13,292 nucleotides of DNA, taken from the NCBI GenBank assembly GCA_030634715.1, contig DAOWAG010000009.1:1-13292 (forward strand), read 5' to 3'. The position numbers and the translations under genes were made by a program. Shown here piece by piece: positions 43 through 11,387 of the stretch. Below the pieces are notes generated by a model. That model saw only the letters and a list, made by a program, of their open reading frames with translations. It was not told the origin of the DNA and searched no databases. Within the stretch, counting starts at the first letter, position 1, and the number at the start of each line of letters is the position of its first letter. Source of the DNA: Candidatus Aegiribacteria sp. (GTDB lineage Bacteria > Fermentibacterota > Fermentibacteria > Fermentibacterales > Fermentibacteraceae).

Positions 43-222
43 CTAATCCTTTTTCTTCAAGCAAGACCTTTCAAGGAGACTCGTCGAGATCACAGCACCC
101 CCTGCAAGAATTAACCATATCTCTTTATATGCTCCCGTACCTCTCAGAGCAAGCGAACATCCTATGATAACCAGGCCCCAGATGATGCTGTTGATTGTTA
201 TTACTTTACCAGGTTTCTTCAT
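43..222 (-). CDS. small two-helix membrane protein (59 aa), paralogue of the 75-aa protein at 1647-1874
   Basis: Found by reading the minus strand. An AAAGGAG ribosome site lies about 6 bases before the ATG at 222 and the frame runs 59 codons to TAG. Two hydrophobic stretches (about residues 7-26 and 33-50) are joined by a short loop, and the C-terminus is lysine-rich (LKKKD), so it is probably a small inner-membrane protein. It aligns with the protein at 1647-1874: both start MKK, then share (I/V)WG-V-IGCSL-L-GT--Y, followed by I-I--GG-AI in the second helix. I recognise no named family and assign no function. It is the third gene in a run after the 75-aa and Kelch genes; the 140-base gap before it contains no clear promoter. 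Being so short, it rests on the ribosome site and the paralogy. Confidence 0.72.
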   Translation of the reverse strand: MKKPGKVITINSIIWGLVIIGCSLALRGTGAYKEIWLILAGGAVISTSLLERSCLKKKD

Positions 223-362: not shown

Positions 363-1598
363 TTATCTTAGCAGTAGCATCTTCTTCATTGCGACACTTT
401 CGTCGCTGGTGATGCGCAACAGATAGGTTCCGGATGCGACTGCCTGACCATTGAAGTCCAATCCCTCCCAGTTGAGTGAATGAGTTCCTGTTTCAAAGAA
501 TCCTTCAACCAGGACGGTGATGCGCCTGCCGGTCATATCGAAGACACAAAGCTCCACCGATTGAGGATATTCCAGGGTGAAGGAAATGCTGGTGCGGAGC
601 GTAAAGGGATTGGGGCGGATCGAGACGTTGGTCAGGAGATGTGGTGTAATATCATCTTCACTTACTCCGGTTCCACTGAATTCCGCTTCTTCAACAATGT
701 CATAAAATGGAAATCCCCCCTGACTGAGGGGCGCTGAACCTGTAATAGTGAAAAATCTGCCATTCACCGCCGCACCAATTAATCCCTCTCGAGGAGTTGG
801 CATTGGGGACAGACTGGTCCAGCTATCGTTTAGCGGATCGTAGCACTCGAATTCATCATTATCTCCTCCACGCCCTCCTGCAACGTAAACCGTGTCGTTT
901 ATAACTGCAACACCACTCCCCCCCCTTGGGGTTTGCATTGGTGTCCTGGTAGACCAGATTTTTGTTACGGGATCGTATTCCTGCACCAGATTTGAACCCC
1001 ATCCGCCAATCAGATAAACCTTATCATTTGCCTGTGCAGTCATGAATGTGTACCTGCCATTCGGCATATTGGCTTCGCTAAACCATGTATCGGTGGGCGG
1101 GTAGTATTTCTCAACCGCTGAAGACGCGCCGTATCCACCGAAAACGAAAATCGTATCATCGACAACAGCACAGCCGCCATAGCCACGAGATGAAGGCATT
1201 GGTGCTATTGTAGTCCAGGAAGTTGTATTGGGATCGTATACTTCAGCCACATCCGTTTCCGTGAAACCACCCGAGAAAGAACCTGTCATGCCACCGAAAA
1301 CATAGATCTTATTATCTACAACTGCTGCCATTGCCGCCCAGCGACTTTTTGTCATGGGTGTAATTGATTCACAGCTATCCCCTGACACATCATAAGCTTC
1401 AACGGTTACAAGTGAAGAATACGGCAGAGTTTCACCCTGGCCTCCAATTACATATACCTTTTCATCAAGAACAACCGAACAGGGATACCAGCGGGAAGTG
1501 AAAATAGGTGTTCGCGTGGTCCATATTTGCCCAAGCGAATTATTGCTGAACGAAAACATGATAAACAATATCACAGAGATCAATCGAATTCGTCCCAT
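363..1598 (-). CDS. secreted Kelch-repeat beta-propeller protein with FlgD-like / T9SS-type C-terminal sorting domain
   Basis: The start chosen is the ATG at 1598, because AAAGGAG lies 6-7 bases before it and translation opens with a signal peptide (MGRIRLISVILFIMFSF, cleavage near SLG-Q). Upstream in-frame ATGs lack a ribosome site. The mature protein of about 390 residues has six Kelch blades, seen as VIGG, VFGG, VFGG, LIGG, VAGG and a degenerate TITG, each followed by a YDP...W..--PMP.-R type segment. This predicts a six-bladed propeller. The last 80 or so residues (SIRPNPF, FDMTGRRI, GQAVASGTYLLRI, KKMLLLR) are typical of the FlgD Ig-like / type A C-terminal domain that directs export and surface attachment in type IX secretion organisms. 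A binding role at the cell surface is likely; the ligand is unknown. It lies 48 bases after the 75-aa membrane protein and probably shares its promoter. Confidence 0.9.
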   Translation of the reverse strand: MGRIRLISVILFIMFSFSNNSLGQIWTTRTPIFTSRWYPCSVVLDEKVYVIGGQGETLPYSSLVTVEAYDVSGDSCESITPMTKSRWAAMAAVVDNKIYVFGGMTGSFSGGFTETDVAEVYDPNTTSWTTIAPMPSSRGYGGCAVVDDTIFVFGGYGASSAVEKYYPPTDTWFSEANMPNGRYTFMTAQANDKVYLIGGWGSNLVQEYDPVTKIWSTRTPMQTPRGGSGVAVINDTVYVAGGRGGDNDEFECYDPLNDSWTSLSPMPTPREGLIGAAVNGRFFTITGSAPLSQGGFPFYDIVEEAEFSGTGVSEDDITPHLLTNVSIRPNPFTLRTSISFTLEYPQSVELCVFDMTGRRITVLVEGFFETGTHSLNWEGLDFNGQAVASGTYLLRITSDESVAMKKMLLLR

Positions 1599-1646
1599 CC
1601 GAATCTCCTTTAGTGAAAGTAGAATCCATTTCATTATTTGCATTTG

Positions 1647-1874
1647 TTAAATACTTGTTTCAGAAATACCAGTTTTCTCGTTCTGAATTTTCCTTAACAG
1701 ACTTCCTACTAAAGGCCAGATAATAATTATATGGATAGCTGACCCACCGATAAGAATGTTGCTTATTTGATCATAGCATTCTGTGCCTTTCAATTTCAGG
1801 GAGCATCCAATCATTACGGCTCCCCAGACCAAGGCACTTGCTATGATGTAATAACCTATGCTGCTTTTCTTCAT
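1647..1874 (-). CDS. small two-helix membrane protein (75 aa), likely TrmB-controlled
   Basis: The start is set at the ATG at 1874 rather than the one at 1883. A GGGGA ribosome site lies about 10 bases before the inner ATG but almost touches the outer one, and the inner start gives MKK like the paralogue at 43-222. Helices are predicted at about residues 8-25 and 38-58, with a short polar tail. Shared motif with the paralogue: VWGAVMIGCSLKLKGT. No known family is recognised. A strong promoter and palindromic operator lie 45-80 bases upstream, and the Kelch gene follows 48 bases downstream, so this is probably the first gene of a two- or three-gene unit. Confidence 0.75.
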   Translation of the reverse strand: MKKSSIGYYIIASALVWGAVMIGCSLKLKGTECYDQISNILIGGSAIHIIIIWPLVGSLLRKIQNEKTGISETSI

Positions 1875-1918
1875 AAATATCATTCCCCATCTTGAATGAA
1901 TACAAAATTATATATTTC

Positions 1919-1944
1919 GTATTGGTAGCATATGCTACTAATAC
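1919..1944. promoter_or_regulatory. 26-bp near-perfect palindrome, putative TrmB-protein operator (site A)
   Basis: The centre GTAGCATATGCTAC (1925-1938) is a perfect 14-bp palindrome. Extending outward, 12 of 13 base pairs match across 1919-1944. It covers the -10 hexamer of the promoter for the 75-aa gene, the classic position for a repressor. A second copy with the same arms and the same position relative to the -10 lies at 3009-3022, in front of trmB. Binding by the neighbouring TrmB-family protein is inferred. Confidence 0.65.
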
Positions 1945-1955
1945 TAGAATGTCAA
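1927..1955 (-). promoter_or_regulatory. sigma-70 type promoter for the 75-aa/Kelch unit
   Basis: On the minus strand TTGACA (1950-1955, a perfect -35) is followed by exactly 17 bases and TATGCT (1927-1932, four of six matches to TATAAT). Transcription would start near 1920, giving a leader of about 46 bases to the ATG at 1874. The -10 sits inside palindrome site A. Confidence 0.65.
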
Positions 1956-2041
1956 TACATAAGAGTAACAAATATGAACTAGTATTCTTAATGGCTGACT
2001 GCACTTAATATTTGCTCTATTATGCTGATAGTCTAGTGGTT

Positions 2042-2065
2042 ATGATCGTTTGGATTCCCGATCAT
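2042..2065. repeat. 7-bp inverted repeat in the trmB / 75-aa intergenic region
   Basis: ATGATCG (2042-2048) and CGATCAT (2059-2065) pair around a 10-base loop. There is no T-run, so it is not a convincing terminator. It lies in the 260-base stretch downstream of trmB, which otherwise holds the hairpin at 2109-2134 and the promoter/operator at 1919-1955. Confidence 0.3.
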
Positions 2066-2108
2066 GCAAAGAGCAGTGATTTGAGCTGGATTGATTGTTA
2101 TAACGGCA

Positions 2109-2134
2109 GAAATTCAATTGTTAGTTGAAGTTTC
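2109..2134 (-). terminator. AT-rich hairpin directly after the trmB stop, terminator candidate
   Basis: Immediately beyond the stop codon, GAAAC-TTCAA and TTGAA-TTTC pair (nine pairs with one bulged base) around a 7-base loop. A few Ts lie in and after the distal arm, but the stem is AT-rich and there is no long T-tract. A weak intrinsic terminator is plausible and fits the separate promoter of the next gene. Confidence 0.35.
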
Positions 2135-3004
2135 TTAATTATCATCAGTGCGGGATTTGCCATTGGAGGATTGATAACGATTGCAAAGCGTTTTCAGACC
2201 GGAAGGCTGGAATTCCAGCAGTGAGACCTGGATCATTTCCTCCTCGAATGGGGTCACAATAGCCGGATGCTCTGATTTGAAGGCTGTGTACAGTATTTCA
2301 CCCGCTAAATTGTTATGATGCATGCAGGAAAGAAAAGTGCTGTTGCTCCACACAGCCTCATGCACACTCTCCATATCCCTTGTGAGCAATCCCAGCAGGT
2401 GCTCTTCGCCATCAACGACGATGCTGATATGTTGCCCTGGCCAGATATCCAGCGCTTGTTTGTCCTTGGTCAGCTGGTATGTATTCACTCCTGGGATCTG
2501 TTCATCGCCGTAGACCTTGCACGCAACGCAAACACCTCTGGACGCGCATTCACTGAGTGAATCCGCAAGGAGTCCGAAGGGGTCCGGAAAAAGGTCACAA
2601 AGGACGATCCCCCTGGCTCTATCCAGCATGGCCTTGCTCCGCTGAATCACCTGATCCACAGTCTTTAAATGGTAGATCCCGTCATCCGGCACCTGACGGG
2701 AGAGAGCTTCGAGAGCATTGTAGGCTTCCCTGCGGTGTTGCCTGAAGTGCTGTTCGAGGTTGTCCAGAAGTTCCGTTGGAGGTACAGCCCGGCAGAGCTT
2801 TTTCTCTCCAACCTCCACGATGATCGCTCCCTTGTCCTCGAGCGATACGATCGCCTTGTAAGTATTGGGAGGCTGCTTGTCGATGGCATGGCTGATCCGA
2901 TATCCAGTAGCAGGTGAGTTTTCAACGAGATAACCGTAGACGAGAGCCTCAATTTCCGTGAAACCCAGAGCCTGCAGGGGTCGGGTGTAATCGTTGTCTT
3001 TCAT
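2135..3004 (-). CDS. TrmB-family transcriptional regulator
   Basis: A 289-residue protein. Residues 8-75 form the TrmB-type winged helix (QALGFTEIEALVYGYL, then TGYRISHAIDKQPPNTYKAIVSLEDKGAI), followed by a helical linker (about 78-105) and a C-terminal PLD-like effector domain with IVLCDLFPDPF and HISIVVDGEEHLLGLL. TrmB proteins are sugar- or metabolite-responsive repressors or activators; the ligand here cannot be read from sequence. The start at 3004 is secure because the winged helix begins almost at once and there is no later suitable Met, although no ribosome site precedes it. Its promoter overlaps the start so closely that the mRNA should be leaderless. A palindrome shared with the promoter of the 75-aa gene suggests autoregulation and control of the downstream Kelch unit. 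Confidence 0.85.
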   Translation of the reverse strand: MKDNDYTRPLQALGFTEIEALVYGYLVENSPATGYRISHAIDKQPPNTYKAIVSLEDKGAIIVEVGEKKLCRAVPPTELLDNLEQHFRQHRREAYNALEALSRQVPDDGIYHLKTVDQVIQRSKAMLDRARGIVLCDLFPDPFGLLADSLSECASRGVCVACKVYGDEQIPGVNTYQLTKDKQALDIWPGQHISIVVDGEEHLLGLLTRDMESVHEAVWSNSTFLSCMHHNNLAGEILYTAFKSEHPAIVTPFEEEMIQVSLLEFQPSGLKTLCNRYQSSNGKSRTDDN

Positions 3005-3008
3005 GTTT

Positions 3009-3022
3009 GTAGTTTAAGCTAC
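3009..3022. promoter_or_regulatory. 14-bp palindrome, putative TrmB-protein operator (site B, autoregulatory)
   Basis: GTAGTTTAAGCTAC is a palindrome with one mismatched pair and has the same length and arms (GTAG...CTAC) as site A at 1925-1938. Reading site B on the minus strand against site A on the plus strand gives the joint pattern TGGTAGCWTAWRCTACWAA (15 of 19 positions identical). On the transcribed strand both sites place the -10 hexamer at palindrome positions 7-12. Confidence 0.6.
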
Positions 3023-3039
3023 CAGTACTCTGTCGTCAA
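3011..3039 (-). promoter_or_regulatory. trmB promoter giving a leaderless mRNA
   Basis: TTGACG (3034-3039, five of six matches) is followed by 17 bases and TAAACT (3011-3016, four of six). Only six bases (ACAAAC) separate the -10 from the ATG, so the usual start of transcription coincides with the A of the start codon. No Shine-Dalgarno sequence is present. Confidence 0.6.
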
Positions 3040-3180: not shown

Positions 3181-3750
3181 TTAGTCTCCGAGGAGTCCGT
3201 CCCGAAGCCCTCCGTTAGGGGGATTGTCTCCAAGCCAGATGGAGAAGAAAGCGCTGGCAAAATCAGCACCCTCGATCATACCTTTGAATTCGCCTAACAC
3301 AGACACCTCGAGTCCTGTGCCTGGAATGTAGGTATATACCATTCTCTCACCATCATCTATGTCACTCATCCATGAGTTAAGCGTTTCAATGCGATCCTGG
3401 AATGTCAACAGGTTGTCACCCGCATTTTTCATGAAGCCTTCTGTCCAGGCGTCGGTTATGTCTCCCATTCCTACATCGCGGACAAAATGAAGAATGAGTC
3501 GTTTGATTTCTTCTGACTGACAGATGGCATACCCGTCACTTGAAGGATTTTCCAGATAGAGAGCCGCAACGTATACATTAACCTTGAATATGGTGGCTTC
3601 GCGGGTTCCGAGACCGTTCAGCACCAGATCAACACCCTCAACAGTGATTTGATCGGGATACTCGACCCCATCACGCTCCATAGCCGATGTGGCTGTAGCT
3701 GCAAACAGTAGCACACTCAGCAAAAGGATTGTTCTCACAACACTTTTCAT
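3181..3750 (-). CDS. exported chalcone-isomerase-like protein (Chalcone_3 / CHI-like family)
   Basis: The start is the ATG at 3750, preceded by GGAGGGAG and opening with a clear signal peptide (MKSVVRTILLLSVLLFAATATSA, cleaved after about residue 23). The remaining 166 residues match the bacterial chalcone-isomerase-like family across its length: YPDQITVEGVDLVLNGLG, FKVNVYVAALYL, RLILHFVRDV, DAWTEGF, YIPGTGLEVSVLGE and the C-terminal IWLGDNPPNGGLRDGLLG. In bacteria these are small periplasmic proteins, mostly of unknown function; flavonoid chemistry is not implied. It stands alone, 187 bases after the rRNA methyltransferase and 176 bases before trmB. A 19-bp hairpin or operator-like repeat (3830-3848) lies upstream. 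I found no convincing -35/-10 pair. Confidence 0.85.
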   Translation of the reverse strand: MKSVVRTILLLSVLLFAATATSAMERDGVEYPDQITVEGVDLVLNGLGTREATIFKVNVYVAALYLENPSSDGYAICQSEEIKRLILHFVRDVGMGDITDAWTEGFMKNAGDNLLTFQDRIETLNSWMSDIDDGERMVYTYIPGTGLEVSVLGEFKGMIEGADFASAFFSIWLGDNPPNGGLRDGLLGD

Positions 3751-3829
3751 AACTCCCTCCGATCTTTCATGAATACGAACACACCTTTGCGAATTACTTT
3801 TCGCGGATAGTACTCTGCACTTCAATTAC

Positions 3830-3848
3830 CGTTTCAGAACATGAAACG
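3830..3848. repeat. perfect 7-bp inverted repeat upstream of the CHI-like gene
   Basis: CGTTTCA (3830-3836) and TGAAACG (3842-3848) flank five bases, 80 bp before the CHI-like start and 90 bp after the methyltransferase stop. It may be an operator or a weak terminator; no T-run follows on the minus strand. Confidence 0.35.
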
Positions 3849-3937
3849 CCTTCTGTATAATTGCCCCAGACATATAAGAATATGCAGTATTTCGATATGA
3901 AACCAGTGATCTCTTATTTGCTTAATGGAAGTACACG

Positions 3938-6851: not shown

Positions 6852-7610
6852 TTATTCAGGCAGACACCATTCAAGCTGAAGTCCAGCTTTATCGGCAATA
6901 CGTTGAAGTTCCTCGCGGTGTTTATTAACTATTTGAGAATCAATCACCGAGTAACTCACCGATAATCTGTTCCCATCAGTGCGAACACGAAGCCGTCCCT
7001 TTACAAATGGTCGAAGGGGAGCCTCCATTTGTTCTACAAGTCTAACAAGTTCCAGAGTAATCGAGTGATCCTCCAGTACTCTTGTAGCAAGGCATGAATC
7101 CGATGGTTTTACTTGTACGCAGGCTGAAATTGAGTCGGCCATTCTGCCGATGTCCACCTTTCCCATTCCAGCCTCAAGAAAGGGATGAAGAATACCGAAC
7201 TCCTCAGCAGCTGCCAGACCCGGTCTGTACTCATCGAGATCATTAATATTCGTGCCATCCATTACAGCGGTGTATCCAAGGGATCCAGCTCTTTCCTCAA
7301 GTTTCCCGTATACTTCCTGCTTACATATATAACAGCGTTCAGGTGTGTTATCAGTGAAGTCGGGATTATCAAGAGGATTCACCTTCACAAATATCGGTTC
7401 AATACCAATTTCACAAGCAACTCTTTGAATAGAATTTCTGTAGAATCCAGCAAGAAATGGCGAATCAGCGGTCAGTGATATAACATTTTCCCGATCAAGA
7501 ACATCGGTTGCTGCTCTAAGAAGAATTTCGCTGTCTGTACCCCCGGAATAGAGGATTGCACATCGACGTGATTCAAGCAGATATTTCTGCAGGGAATCTG
7601 GTACAATCAT
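6852..7610 (-). CDS. larE: LarE, ATP-dependent sulfur transferase for nickel-pincer nucleotide cofactor (three-cysteine type)
   Basis: A 252-residue PP-loop protein. The ATP-binding motif YSGGTDS is at 21-27, followed by NTPERCYICKQEVYGKL (about 89-104), DGTN (118-121), RPGLAAAEEFGILHPF and PSDSCLATRV (169-178). LarE adenylates pyridinium-3,5-biscarboxylate mononucleotide and inserts sulfur to give the dithiocarboxylate. L. plantarum LarE has a single sacrificial Cys, whereas many homologues such as that of Thermotoga maritima bind a [4Fe-4S] cluster with three Cys. Here Cys93, Cys96 and Cys173 provide that set, so a catalytic, cluster-based enzyme is predicted. GAGGAGG lies 4 bases before the ATG. 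It is divergent from larC with an 85-base gap. Confidence 0.92.
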   Translation of the reverse strand: MIVPDSLQKYLLESRRCAILYSGGTDSEILLRAATDVLDRENVISLTADSPFLAGFYRNSIQRVACEIGIEPIFVKVNPLDNPDFTDNTPERCYICKQEVYGKLEERAGSLGYTAVMDGTNINDLDEYRPGLAAAEEFGILHPFLEAGMGKVDIGRMADSISACVQVKPSDSCLATRVLEDHSITLELVRLVEQMEAPLRPFVKGRLRVRTDGNRLSVSYSVIDSQIVNKHREELQRIADKAGLQLEWCLPE

Positions 7611-7695
7611 GAATCCTCCTCTGGTTTGGACTGTGCCATGGTGCTTATAATATGATGACTATGTATGGGAATGTCCTAGATAAATTTGGTGGTAC
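7611..7695. promoter_or_regulatory. divergent larE / larC promoter region
   Basis: The 85-base gap must hold both promoters. A perfect TATAAT lies on the plus strand at 7646-7651, about 45 bases before the larC ATG, but the only -35-like hexamer (TTGGAC, 7626-7631) is just 14 bases upstream of it, so the assignment is uncertain. The same AT-rich block could serve as -10 (TATTAT) for larE. No clear operator palindrome is seen. Confidence 0.35.
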
Positions 7696-8877
7696 ATGAA
7701 GATAGCTGTTTTTGATCCTTTCTGCGGTGCTTCCGGGAATATGATTCTCGGTGCTCTTATCGATGCCGGCGCAGATCAGTCAAGTCTGAATGAAATGCTT
7801 TCGAAGCTTAACTTGAATGGTTGGGAGCTTACAACAGAAACGGTTTTAAAGAATAGTCTCAGAGGAACTTTTGTCGAAGTGCATATCCCGCACGAAACGA
7901 AATCCAGAGGTCTTCGAGACATAGAAATAATACTCGGGAACGCTGACTTACCTGCATATGTCATAAAAAAGAGTCTTAATTCGTTTCAGAGGCTTGCTGA
8001 AGCCGAAGCGGAAGCTCACGGGATACCGGTCAGTGAAGTTCATTTTCATGAAACAGGCGCGATAGATGCAATAATTGATATCGTCGGAAGTTTCTGTTGC
8101 CTCCATCTGCTTGGAATTGACAAGGTTTTCTCTTCTCCAATCTCAACTGGAACCGGCACTGTTACCTGCGCGCACGGCATTCTGCCCGTTCCGTCTCCGG
8201 CGACAATAGCAATTCTCAGAGGAGTTCCCACTTGTCCTTCCGGCATTAGATCCGAGCTTATCACGCCCACCGGCGCGACCATACTGGTCACCGCAGTTGA
8301 ATCATGGAATACTCCTCCCCCAATGATTCCTGTCATCTCCGGAATGGGAGCCGGCACATTCGATCACGAAAGACCCAATCTTCTTCGTGTCACAATCGGA
8401 ACTCAGGTGGGGAGTATCGGATGCAATCATGACAGCTGTGTTGAATTAAGAACGATTCTGGATGATATGGATATGAGAATCTGGCCGGATACAGCTGATC
8501 TCATTCTCGAATCTGGAGCTTTTGATTGCTATGCGACAATGTGTATTGGCAGAAAAGGTAGACCTGCAATCGAGGTAACTGTACTCTGCTCCTCTTCGAT
8601 GAAAGACGCTGTCACAGAATGCATTTTTCGCAATACTACAACTCTCGGAATAAGGATTCGGGAAACAGCAAGGGCTGTCCTTGAGAGAGATTTCTTCGAT
8701 GTGCTGACAGAATTCGGTACAATTCCAATCAAGACTGGAATATTTGAGGGTGAAGTGATTCATATAGAACCGGAGTATGAGGATTGCGCGAATGCGTCAA
8801 GAACTCATAATGTTCCCGTGCAAACTGTTATAACCGCAGCAAGAATAGCGGCTGATAACTTGAAAAAGGAAGGGTGA
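7696..8877 (+). CDS. larC: LarC, nickel insertion protein (cyclometallase) for nickel-pincer nucleotide cofactor
   Basis: A 393-residue full-length LarC. Motifs in order: FDPFCGASGNMILGALIDAG (6-25), EVHFHETGAIDAIIDIVG (114-131), GTVTCAHGILPVPSPAT (154-170) and ELITPTGATIL (187-197), then the C-terminal domain with ELRTILDDMD. LarC uses CTP to insert nickel into the dithiolated pincer nucleotide, the last step of cofactor synthesis. Some lactobacilli encode LarC in two pieces joined by frameshifting; here the frame is continuous. The ribosome site is modest (GGTGG, 3 bases before ATG). It is the first gene of the plus-strand operon and its stop overlaps the next start by four bases (GTGA). 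Confidence 0.93.
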   Translation: MKIAVFDPFCGASGNMILGALIDAGADQSSLNEMLSKLNLNGWELTTETVLKNSLRGTFVEVHIPHETKSRGLRDIEIILGNADLPAYVIKKSLNSFQRLAEAEAEAHGIPVSEVHFHETGAIDAIIDIVGSFCCLHLLGIDKVFSSPISTGTGTVTCAHGILPVPSPATIAILRGVPTCPSGIRSELITPTGATILVTAVESWNTPPPMIPVISGMGAGTFDHERPNLLRVTIGTQVGSIGCNHDSCVELRTILDDMDMRIWPDTADLILESGAFDCYATMCIGRKGRPAIEVTVLCSSSMKDAVTECIFRNTTTLGIRIRETARAVLERDFFDVLTEFGTIPIKTGIFEGEVIHIEPEYEDCANASRTHNVPVQTVITAARIAADNLKKEG

Positions 8878-9548
8878 GTCTCCTGGAAGATTATTCAAAA
8901 GACCTCCCGATGACGTCTCTGGGTCGGAAGAAAATTCGATCAACAGTGTTGTTCCTTCTGGCACTTATGATTACAGCATTTTTACTCAGTTTCCTTTTTG
9001 CTCTTAGTCCTGCACCTCCCACTGAGAGTATTCTTTCAGATGTTGATGATTTTCCAAGTGAACATATCTGGTTCAACAGCAGCGAGCCCCTGAGTCTTTA
9101 CAGCCAGCTCAGAAGACACGTAGTCATTGTTTTCTTCTGCAGGATGTCTACACTTTCAGATGTACAGTATTTCACAAGGCTTCAGGATATTCAAACAGAG
9201 TTCAGAGAACGTCCATTAGTTGTAGTAATCGCATTGGAAACAGTCGAGACATCCATCGATGAACTGGAAAGCATTGTTACTGACTGGGGCATTGATTTTC
9301 CAGTGATCGTTGACAATAGAGGAATTGTATCCAACCGGTTCAATGTCAGCTCATATCCTTCATTGCTGGTTCTTGACACACAGGCAAGAGTATCCGCGAG
9401 ATTCTACTCCGGGTGGGAGCAGGCTGATCTGAAAGGAATTGTTGAGGATCTGCTTCAGCTGGAGGGAGCAATGCGATCCTTACAGGGTCAGATTTTCAGA
9501 CCGGATGGAGAATCATTCATTCCAAATTCTCTTCGGGTGGAGTCCTGA
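8874..9548 (+). CDS. membrane-anchored thioredoxin-fold protein lacking the CxxC motif
   Basis: A 224-residue protein with a GTG start overlapping the larC stop (GTGA), so it is probably translationally coupled; AAGGAA lies just upstream. Residues 22-45 form one hydrophobic helix after a basic segment (GRKKIRS), giving a signal anchor with the rest outside the cytoplasm. Residues 63-197 fit the TlpA/redoxin thioredoxin fold: WFNSSEPLSLYSQLRRHVVIVFF, a helix with YFTRLQDIQTEF, strand LVVVIALE, and the cis-proline strand VSSYPSLLVLDTQARV. At the active site CGPC-like residues are absent: alignment by the FF strand gives Ser92-Thr-Leu-Ser95, with one Cys at 89. A disulfide reductase role is therefore unlikely; a structural, sensing or partner-binding role is possible. 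Its place between larC and hydE suggests a link to metallocofactor assembly, but no function is known. Confidence 0.75.
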   Translation: MSLLEDYSKDLPMTSLGRKKIRSTVLFLLALMITAFLLSFLFALSPAPPTESILSDVDDFPSEHIWFNSSEPLSLYSQLRRHVVIVFFCRMSTLSDVQYFTRLQDIQTEFRERPLVVVIALETVETSIDELESIVTDWGIDFPVIVDNRGIVSNRFNVSSYPSLLVLDTQARVSARFYSGWEQADLKGIVEDLLQLEGAMRSLQGQIFRPDGESFIPNSLRVES

Positions 9549-9553
9549 CCAGT

Positions 9554-10627
9554 TTGAAGTTCTCACGCAATCTTTCGCGAGAGAGTATAATCCGATTCCT
9601 TGAAGGCGGGGGACCTGATTCTGAGCTGTTTAAAGCAGCAAGCGATGTTCTCCTGGAATCAATAGGTTCCAGTGTTTTTCTCAGAGGAATCATTGAGCTG
9701 TCAAATGATTGCAGGAAGAACTGCTTCTACTGCGGTCTCAGAAGAGATAACAGAACCTTCTCAAGGTATACGATTCCCTTTGATGAAGTTATTAACGCAT
9801 TTGAGTCAGCGTATGCAAAGGGGCTTCGTTCTTTTCTACTTCAATCCGGAGAACTCCTTGGAGCTTCGCATATTGACCATGTAGAGAGGATCCTTCGCTG
9901 GGTTTCGAGAAATCTTGAGGGTGTCAGGATGGTCCTTTCAATGGGAGAGCTGCCAATAGGGAGTCTGCAAAGACTCAGGGAGGCAGGCGCTCACAGGTAT
10001 CTTCTGAGAATCGAGACCTCTTCTAGGGAATTGTATGATAAATTTCATCCTGATGATGGTCTTCATGAATATGATGACCGTTTGCGTTCACTTCAGATGA
10101 TTAAAGCATCCGGCTGGCAGACAGGAACAGGTGTCCTTATCGGTCTGCCGGGGCAAACTGCTGAAAACCTTGCAGATGATCTGCTGTTCATGAAAGCAAT
10201 GGATATTGATATGTGCGGCATGGGACCCTATCTTGAGCATGAACAGACACCGCTCTGGAACAGACGGGGTGAACTCAGCCAATTGGAGGAAAGGGAGTTT
10301 CTGACGCTTCGAATGATATCGCTGCTGAGAATACTTCTTCCAACTGCAAATATCGCTGCCACTACCGCTCTGCAGACTCTTGACCCCGAAGGCCTTGAAA
10401 AAGGACTCCTGGCTGGAGCGAATGTCGTAATGCCGAATCTCACTCCAATGAAATACAGAAAAGATTATAATCTTTACCAGGGTAAAGTGCAGGTGGAGGA
10501 TACTCTGGACGAAGTTCTGAAGATACTGGAGAATCGCTGCAGCGCGATCGGAAGAGAGGTTGAACTCGGAAATCCTGGAGATCCGATTCATTATACGAAT
10601 CGAATAGAAGAACTGGTGGGTGATTAG
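9554..10627 (+). CDS. hydE: HydE, radical SAM maturase of the [FeFe]-hydrogenase H-cluster
   Basis: A 357-residue radical SAM protein with a TTG start at 9554; GGAG lies 11 bases before it inside the end of the previous gene. The cluster motif is Cys53-x3-Cys57-x2-Cys60 in LSNDCRKNCFYCGLRRDN, a HydE signature. Further HydE features: RYTIPFDEVI, FLLQSGE, GAHRYLLRIET, TGTGVLIGLPGQT, GPYLEHEQTPL and the ending TTALQTLDPEGLEKGLLAGANVVMPNLTP. HydE builds the iron-CO/CN-dithiolate precursor of the H-cluster with HydF and HydG; neither is in this window. The C-terminal Cys trio that binds a second, dispensable cluster in T. maritima HydE is missing (only Cys329). The gene is packed between the thioredoxin-fold gene (5-base gap) and larB (8-base overlap). 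A related role on another substrate cannot be excluded. Confidence 0.88.
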   Translation: MKFSRNLSRESIIRFLEGGGPDSELFKAASDVLLESIGSSVFLRGIIELSNDCRKNCFYCGLRRDNRTFSRYTIPFDEVINAFESAYAKGLRSFLLQSGELLGASHIDHVERILRWVSRNLEGVRMVLSMGELPIGSLQRLREAGAHRYLLRIETSSRELYDKFHPDDGLHEYDDRLRSLQMIKASGWQTGTGVLIGLPGQTAENLADDLLFMKAMDIDMCGMGPYLEHEQTPLWNRRGELSQLEEREFLTLRMISLLRILLPTANIAATTALQTLDPEGLEKGLLAGANVVMPNLTPMKYRKDYNLYQGKVQVEDTLDEVLKILENRCSAIGREVELGNPGDPIHYTNRIEELVGD

Positions 10628-11387
10628 ACTGAATAATCAGGAAATACATGAGCTCCTGGAATTACTGAGAAAAGCTGGTATTCCCCCTGAGGAAGCTCTC
10701 AAGATGCTGAATTCACAGCTTACCTCTCAACTTGGATTCGCAAGAGTGGACGCCGGTAGAGGGGCTAGAGCAGTTCTTCCTGAGATTATTCTTGCTCCAG
10801 GGAAAGAATTCGAAGAAGTGAGAGCCGTGACTGATAACCTCTTCAGCAGGATTGGACTTGCGATTGTATCCAGAGTAGAAGCTGAGCTTGGCGAATACCT
10901 TCAACAAGCTTTCCCGGATGGTTCCTCTTATAGGAGTGGGCATATTTTTACTCTTGGAAGTGACAATGCTGAATATACGGAGAGTGAAGGTTCAGTTGCT
11001 GTTATCTCTGCGGGGACCTCAGATCTTCATGTGGCTGAGGAATCTGCTGTAATTCTGGAGACTCTGAATGTTGATACATATCGTTTCTATGATGTTGGAG
11101 TTGCAGGTATACATAGATTGGGGGATGTTCTTCCTGATCTGAGGAAATGCTCTGTCTGTATTGTCTGTGCTGGAATGGACGCTGCCCTTCCGACTGTAAT
11201 CGGGGGTTTATATAAAGGACCGATAGTTGCAGTACCTGTATCTACAGGATATGGTACCGCATTCAAAGGAGTTACTGCACTTCTTTCAATGCTGAATTCA
11301 TGCAGTCCTGGAATAAGTGTAATGAATATCGACAATGGGGTTGGCGCGGCGGCAGCTGCGCTGAGAATACTGAGAGGAAGCTATTAG
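10620..11387 (+). CDS. larB: LarB, pyridinium-3,5-biscarboxylate mononucleotide synthase
   Basis: A 255-residue protein. GTG at 10620 lies inside the end of hydE (8 bases of overlap), which suggests translational coupling; only a weak GGTGG precedes it and no in-frame ATG is close. The N-terminal part holds LGFARVDAGRGARAVLPEIILAPGK (38-62), and the PurE-like C-terminal domain holds SAGTSDLHVAEE, DVGVAGIHRL (158-167), AGMDAALPTVIGGL, AVPVSTGYG and LNSCSPGISVMNIDNG. Cys228 in the last motif corresponds to the catalytic Cys that forms the adduct with nicotinic acid adenine dinucleotide. LarB carboxylates and hydrolyses that substrate, the first step of the nickel-pincer cofactor path, and so supplies LarE and then LarC. 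Confidence 0.93.
   Translation: MIRLNNQEIHELLELLRKAGIPPEEALKMLNSQLTSQLGFARVDAGRGARAVLPEIILAPGKEFEEVRAVTDNLFSRIGLAIVSRVEAELGEYLQQAFPDGSSYRSGHIFTLGSDNAEYTESEGSVAVISAGTSDLHVAEESAVILETLNVDTYRFYDVGVAGIHRLGDVLPDLRKCSVCIVCAGMDAALPTVIGGLYKGPIVAVPVSTGYGTAFKGVTALLSMLNSCSPGISVMNIDNGVGAAAAALRILRGSY

Follow-up and report, generated by a model that had tools for sequence, protein, structure and literature searches.

A palindrome over the −10 box as putative operator of a probable TrmB-family autorepressor in Fermentibacterota and other bacterial phyla

Main finding

An 18-bp dyad, in general form TAGTAG-N6-CTACTA, is very likely the operator of the TrmB-family protein encoded at 3004-2135 of the window, by which we mean the whole analysed stretch of 13,292 nucleotides from Candidatus Aegiribacteria sp. 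(Fermentibacterota). The protein would be a local autorepressor that blocks the −10 box and has one or two sites. Kept across phyla and mostly present as the sole exact copy in a genome, the putative operator points to a compact, self-controlling on/off module.

Palindromes in two promoters of the window

The trmB promoter, on the minus strand, has a −35 box TTGACG (3034-3039) and a −10 box TAAACT (3011-3016) separated by 17 bp. The promoter of the second unit, on the same strand, combines TTGACA (1950-1955) and TATGCT (1927-1932) at the same distance. Both −10 boxes lie inside a GTAGCWTAWRCTAC palindrome and occupy positions 7-12 of each 14-mer, GTAGCTTAAACTAC at 3022-3009 (6 of 7 symmetric base pairs) and GTAGCATATGCTAC at 1938-1925 (7 of 7). 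The 18-bp dyads around them are TGGTAG-CTTAAA-CTACAA at 3007-3024, a putative autoregulatory operator that ends 2 nt before the trmB ATG, and TAGTAG-CATATG-CTACCA at 1923-1940, the second putative operator. As the −10 box is 6 nt away from the ATG, the trmB mRNA of the window is probably leaderless, judging by this geometry. The second unit has a leader, its ATG (1883) lying ~ 37 nt downstream of the expected start.

The two palindrome-bearing promoters had been noticed in a first-pass annotation and are real, since TTGAC(A/G), the 17-bp spacing, the place of the −10 box in the 14-mer and the coordinates were all found again. The reported agreement of 15 in 19 bases is obtained only with the plus strand of the 1923-1941 site, and when both sites are read as transcribed it drops to 14 of 19. 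The 19-mer proposed there matches exactly once at each promoter in a scan of the window; at up to 3 mismatches 0.01 matches are expected in shuffled sequence, the pattern having been written from these same two sites. A generic scan found 20 promoters in the window, not above shuffles (mean 21.0), and the trmB promoter dyad taken alone is not significant (p = 0.44, crude test with 200 shuffles). The window alone is thus insufficient to prove that the match in register exceeds chance, as had been proposed, and the proof comes from conservation in other genomes.

The TrmB-family regulator

The regulator gene (2135-3004, minus strand) encodes 289 aa and was assigned through Pfam, homologues and Foldseek. 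A PF01978 winged helix covers residues 10-76 with 53.8 bits (cut-off 25.6), while the NCBIfam cut-offs for archaeal TrmB and TrmBL1 equivalogs are missed (27.7 of 600 and 25.3 of 650 bits); judged by its domain, the protein is a TrmB-family member and not an archaeal TrmB equivalog. The protein search gave 261 relatives, 120 of them listed, and 31 of those listed were aligned with the window protein. N47, T48 and Y49 are invariant across these 32 sequences. For Pyrococcus TrmB, PMC4158304 describes a role of Tyr50 in the recognition helix, and Y49 presumably takes the equivalent position.

The C-terminal domain of the window protein has no PF11495 match at E 0.001; PF11495 is listed for homologues such as P0009. 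Foldseek retrieved the TrmB sugar-binding domain 2f5t (E 2.7e-7, rmsd 3.4), TrmB 3qph and PLD folds, with the TrmBL2 structures 5bpd, 5bpi and 5bqt as the best matches of the window protein, and this suggests that the C-terminal domain resembles the TrmB effector/PLD fold. The combination of a winged helix with such a domain suggests a dimer that would read the dyad and sense a ligand. The AF2 model has a mean pLDDT of 73.8, with 49-68 for residues 1-80 (the DNA-binding domain), and was not used for DNA contacts.

In the alignment, the long N-termini of some databank orthologues (VAYTTNM and similar) spell the operator. The annotated starts of P0010, P0012, P0018 and P0023 lie upstream of the aligned methionine, and the extra residues are translated operator, as checked on DNA for loci L003 and L004. 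The window also encodes a chalcone isomerase-like protein (3181-3825; PF16036, 146 bits), immediately upstream of trmB and in the same orientation.

Conservation of the dyad at trmB homologues

Scanning of contigs yielded 39 trmB-homologous loci, and in 25 of them the dyad, at 10 or more of 12 matches, is positioned up to 100 nt upstream of trmB. Elsewhere in the same 39 loci it matches at four scattered positions (L003:3698, L014:7578, L019:10077 and L031:11240) and at two second operators. The 25 loci are titled with ten named phyla or candidate phyla: Fermentibacterota, Planctomycetota, Effluviviacota, Pseudomonadota, Myxococcota, Eiseniibacteriota, Aminicenantes, Krumholzibacteriota, Neomarinimicrobiota and Armatimonadota. 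All 12 positions match only in Planctomycetota, Pseudomonadota, Myxococcota and the unplaced L007, and the other dyad loci match at 10 or 11; the Fermentibacteria have TGGTAG-N6-CTACCA-like forms. In a midpoint-rooted tree of 39 of the 40 proteins (L030 is below the length filter), the window belongs to a clade of 17 proteins (support 100/98), and all 17 have the dyad. Conservation at the orthologous promoters, to which the operator reading had been tied from the outset, was therefore observed, and it extends to the second operator, kept in both Fermentibacteria relatives (L001 and L002).

Fourteen of the 39 loci have no dyad at the 10-of-12 level; four carry another palindrome and ten neither. 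The Armatimonadota loci L019, L022, L026, L027 and L032 have no dyad at the promoter, and remote paralogues in Fermentibacterota (25 of L057-L084) share no palindrome at the nearest start codon, with no start found for 10 of them.

Comparison of 26 trmB promoters (the 25 loci and the window) was made on a set picked by dyad likeness, so the apparent conservation is inflated. T1, G3, T4 and A18 are invariant; there is a single deviation at each of A5, T14 and A15, and two at each of C13 and C16. TTG precedes the dyad by 15 nt in 10 promoters, by 16 nt in five, and by 15 nt in all three second promoters. The remaining 11 trmB promoters have no TTG at either distance, and the overlap between the dyad and the −10 box is consequently not universal; by eye, the dyad of L014 lies in the promoter spacer. 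In 11 of the 26 (the window, L001-L005 and L009-L013), exactly 2 nt lie between the end of the dyad and the ATG, a geometry that would imply leaderless mRNA. Instead of it, L006 and L017 have a leader with a Shine-Dalgarno-like box, and in L006 and L007 the dyad is at least 40 nt from the start.

Distribution of the motif in whole genomes

We scanned 16 whole genomes of relatives for TRGTAGYNNNNRCTACYA, as exact patterns of fixed spacing, which miss weaker sites. By coordinates, the 15 exact matches are located at trmB (13) or at the adjacent operon (two, in Fermentibacteria G001 and G002), and 12 genomes contain a single exact copy, at trmB. The trmB sites of G006 and G001 differ by one mismatch, and G016 gave no match. 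Occurrence at many unrelated promoters, named in the first-pass annotation as evidence against its reading, was not found at exact match. The regulon proposed there, autorepression plus control of a membrane/surface unit, is supported and does look local rather than made up of transport or surface genes dispersed over the genome. A wider regulon was rejected because exact-match scans of whole genomes gave no further sites.

Away from trmB and its neighbour, the 16 genomes hold 23 non-overlapping one-mismatch sites, 20 of which were examined (all but the two of G005 and one of G011). Sixteen of the 20 fall within reading frames that stay open for 150 codons or more, the exceptions being L092, L099, L105 and L109, and none has TTGAC in register. 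TTG is found 15 nt away from two of them, L096 (frame open over the whole stretch) and L097 (163-codon frame), but neither has TTGAC nor, by eye, a −10 box. An identical 18-mer, TAGTAGTGAAAGTTACCA, with similar upstream bases, is present in both Fermentibacteria genomes (L093:601-618 and L099:601-618), in a 272-codon frame in one and in only short frames in the other.

Co-occurrence was surveyed in 138 genomes, taken from one phylum (that of G002, 42 genomes) and one order (that of the alphaproteobacterial locus L010, 96 genomes). Two of the 42 encode a close trmB (79% identity), and it is these two that carry the exact motif, G001 at the second operator only; another 14 have nothing closer than remote paralogues (best E 9e-36 to 8e-19) and lack the motif. 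Within the order, the regulator is present at E 1e-40 or better in 6 of 96 genomes, and the same six carry the motif once each, beside the regulator. Eight genomes thus have both and 130 neither, and the motif in genomes without a close trmB, also anticipated as adverse evidence, was seen in 0 of 130. All eight positive genomes were represented among the 39 loci before the pattern was drawn up, so that only the absence in the other 130 is new, and the one-sided exact test (4e-13) is too strong given genome relatedness and the choice of pattern.

The reversed pattern, used as a control, gave more one-mismatch matches than the motif in most of the 16 genomes (68 vs. 3 in G003; equal in G008), and it occurs exactly in 17 of the 96 and 1 of the 42 genomes. 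The motif, rich in TAG/CTA, is generally rare, so that composition accounts for part of its absence elsewhere. In viral contigs there were 93 pattern matches, none encoding a relative. Conserved, regulator-specific and placed over the regulator's own core promoter, the putative operator is of the kind expected for a local autoregulated repressor.

The second unit and its putative operator

The first gene of the putative target unit encodes a protein of 78 aa (1647-1883, minus strand; 75 aa from the second in-frame ATG), membrane-type by eye and without a Pfam match. The second gene encodes a Kelch propeller with a FlgD_ig domain (363-1643, minus strand; domains by Pfam, export by eye). Another small membrane-type protein, of 59 aa, is translated from 46-222 on the same strand.

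The second operator is also present at L001:10938-10955 and L002:7961-7978, in each case with TTGACA 15 nt upstream. In L002 it is directly followed by a Kelch gene (7998-9236, 73% identity to the window protein) and then by small membrane-type genes. In L001 the first gene after it corresponds to the 59-aa protein (11005-11184, 81% identity) and the next is an 89-aa gene, while no Kelch gene was seen up to the end of the contig piece. In the window, L001 and L002 the second operator thus stays in front of a common set of gene families whose order changes. L003 encodes a relative of the 78-aa protein (3649-3873, 52% identity over 66 aa) two genes downstream of trmB and in the same orientation; there is no dyad between trmB and this gene, and one weak match (3698) is inside the gene of that relative.

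The tiny membrane-type proteins form a family in tandem copies with the pattern IWGxVxxGCxLxLxGTxxY, recognized by eye, in the window (46-222 and 1647-1883), L001:11005-11456, L002:9315-9775 and L003:3649-3873. Three members scanned had no Pfam match.

Neighbouring genes and possible spread of the module

With L001 and L002 set aside, 37 loci remain, and the neighbours of trmB were searched with Pfam in 26 of them; genes were picked and export was judged by eye, and the result is a trend and not a test. A peptidase or hydrolase was found in 18 of the 26 loci. Aspartyl proteases accompany trmB in L004, L005, L009, L010, L011, L013 and L021, with PDZ above the cut-off in five of them, below it in L004, and L013 cut by the contig end. 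Serine hydrolases of the beta-lactamase type occur in L008 (with GH3), L016 and L023, S41 in L024 and, tricorn-like, in L033, M16 in L018, M24 in L015, M28 in L022, L026 and L032, and a CAAX-type protease in L014. The dyad is present in 13 of these 18 loci and absent in L018, L022, L026, L032 and L033. Repeat or propeller-type neighbours are found in L006 and L028. Outside the trend are a fumarylacetoacetate hydrolase domain (L007), a CHMI isomerase (L019) and a PagL-like protein (L031), and the neighbours in L003, L017 and L025 have no Pfam match.

The scattered occurrence (2 of 42 and 6 of 96 genomes) and the position of Planctomycetota in several separate branches of the tree suggest possible horizontal spread. 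We tentatively envisage, at slightly below an even chance, a horizontally spreading one-operator cassette, in which the operator, fused to the −10 box and start of trmB, travels with the regulator and settles beside an exported peptidase, hydrolase or surface propeller that it would then control. A second copy would have captured the neighbour in Fermentibacteria, and in Phycisphaerales the operator would have been replaced together with the DNA-reading helix.

Distant homologues with another palindrome

In the Phycisphaerales-type loci L028, L033, L034 and L038, the trmB start bears an unrelated palindrome, TTCTTCCT-N4-AGGAAGAA, instead of the dyad. It lies at 9943-9962 in each of them and includes a ribosome-binding-like AGGAAG. 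At one mismatch or less, it was found once per genome in four of five genomes, at trmB by coordinates, and not in the fifth (L036). The recognition-helix segment of these homologues reads GRPVGNVYKAV or GKSVGNIYKAV, compared with DKQPPNTYKAI in the window. This correlation, over one clade, fits a TrmB protein and an operator changing together.

Proposed mechanism and alternatives

Most likely, a TrmB dimer sits on the −10 boxes of its own promoter and of the adjacent promoter for the small membrane protein and Kelch propeller, where it would block RNA polymerase, and a ligand of the C-terminal domain would release it from the operator. With the trmB mRNA probably leaderless and the target unit provided with a leader, different expression levels would be possible from similar operators. 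Direct binding of TrmB, repression, leaderless initiation, ligand control and the physiological role are all what we infer from sequence.

It is unlikely, although not far-fetched, that TrmB activates from these sites or alternates between activating and repressing. PMC4158304 describes several archaeal TrmB proteins with both activities, the outcome depending on where the site lies, but the dyad covers the −10 box and nearly reaches the trmB start codon and, going by position only, a bound dimer should exclude RNA polymerase.

Less probable still is that another regulator uses the dyad to control trmB and its neighbour. A candidate exists in L001, where a gene for a PadR-type regulator lies just upstream of trmB. 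Against it, the motif tracks trmB in the 138 genomes, no other gene was seen by eye to be constant beside trmB in 23 neighbourhoods, and distant TrmBs carry a different palindrome at the same place.

The exact 2-nt distance between dyad and ATG in 11 of 26 trmB promoters could also mean that the sequence is kept as a special core promoter or a leaderless-translation signal. We regard this as very improbable, because the second promoter has the same dyad plus a leader, the dyads of L006 and L007 are far from the start, and no exact match occurs elsewhere in the 16 scanned genomes and the surveys of 42 and 96 genomes.

Chance likeness of two AT-rich −10 regions, in accord with the shuffle results for the window, is refuted by conservation across phyla and hardly deserves consideration, given the dyad in 25 of 39 trmB loci, its near-private occurrence genome-wide and the repeated −35 register.

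Comparison with known systems

The preferred reading, a −10-blocking autorepressor, has parallels in systems described in PMC4158304 and PMC8700777. TrmB, TrmBL1 and Tgr of Pyrococcus and Thermococcus share with the window protein the PF01978 winged helix and, by fold (2f5t, 3qph), probably the TrmB-type effector domain. They also share a palindromic operator at the core promoter, with autoregulation listed for some members (PMC4158304). Their operators TACT-N3-AGTA and TATCAC-N5-GTGATA differ from the TAGTAG-N6-CTACTA of the window type (PMC4158304), and their targets are sugar uptake and glycolysis/central metabolism (PMC4158304). Halobacterium VNG1451C, also of the TrmB family, has a palindromic motif with a TACT half; it differs in the form TACT-N7-8-GAGTA, with half-sites the other way round, and in being both activator and repressor (PMC4158304). 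The chromatin protein TrmBL2, the best Foldseek match, is described as devoid of an effector domain and as binding DNA within genes as well as between them (PMC4158304), whereas the exact window-type site is nearly private. EdcR of Caenibius, a classical local repressor, has a palindrome over the −10 boxes of its own and neighbouring promoters, different in sequence from the window-type dyad (PMC8700777). In open-access papers we found no bacterial TrmB with such an operator. The predicted logic is classical; what is unusual is an operator so private, cross-phylum and fused to the start of its own regulator.

The TrmB family has been described mainly through archaeal sugar regulators. A bacterial clade, in phyla known largely from metagenomes, now gains a testable putative operator, a tiny regulon and candidate targets (peptidases, hydrolases and propellers). 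The near-private operator offers a clean case for co-evolution of regulator and site and for movement between phyla, as well as a repressor-operator pair that may serve for orthogonal gene control in the laboratory.

Apart from the regulator, positions 6852-11387 of the window bring together a LarE-like ORF (252 aa), LarC, a thioredoxin-like protein, a HydE-type radical SAM protein and LarB. LarC, HydE and LarB were identified by profile match, the HydE-type protein with 297 bits, above the HydE cut-off, and the LarE-like and thioredoxin-like proteins by eye. This segment thus presents a HydE-like enzyme within a nickel-pincer cofactor cluster.
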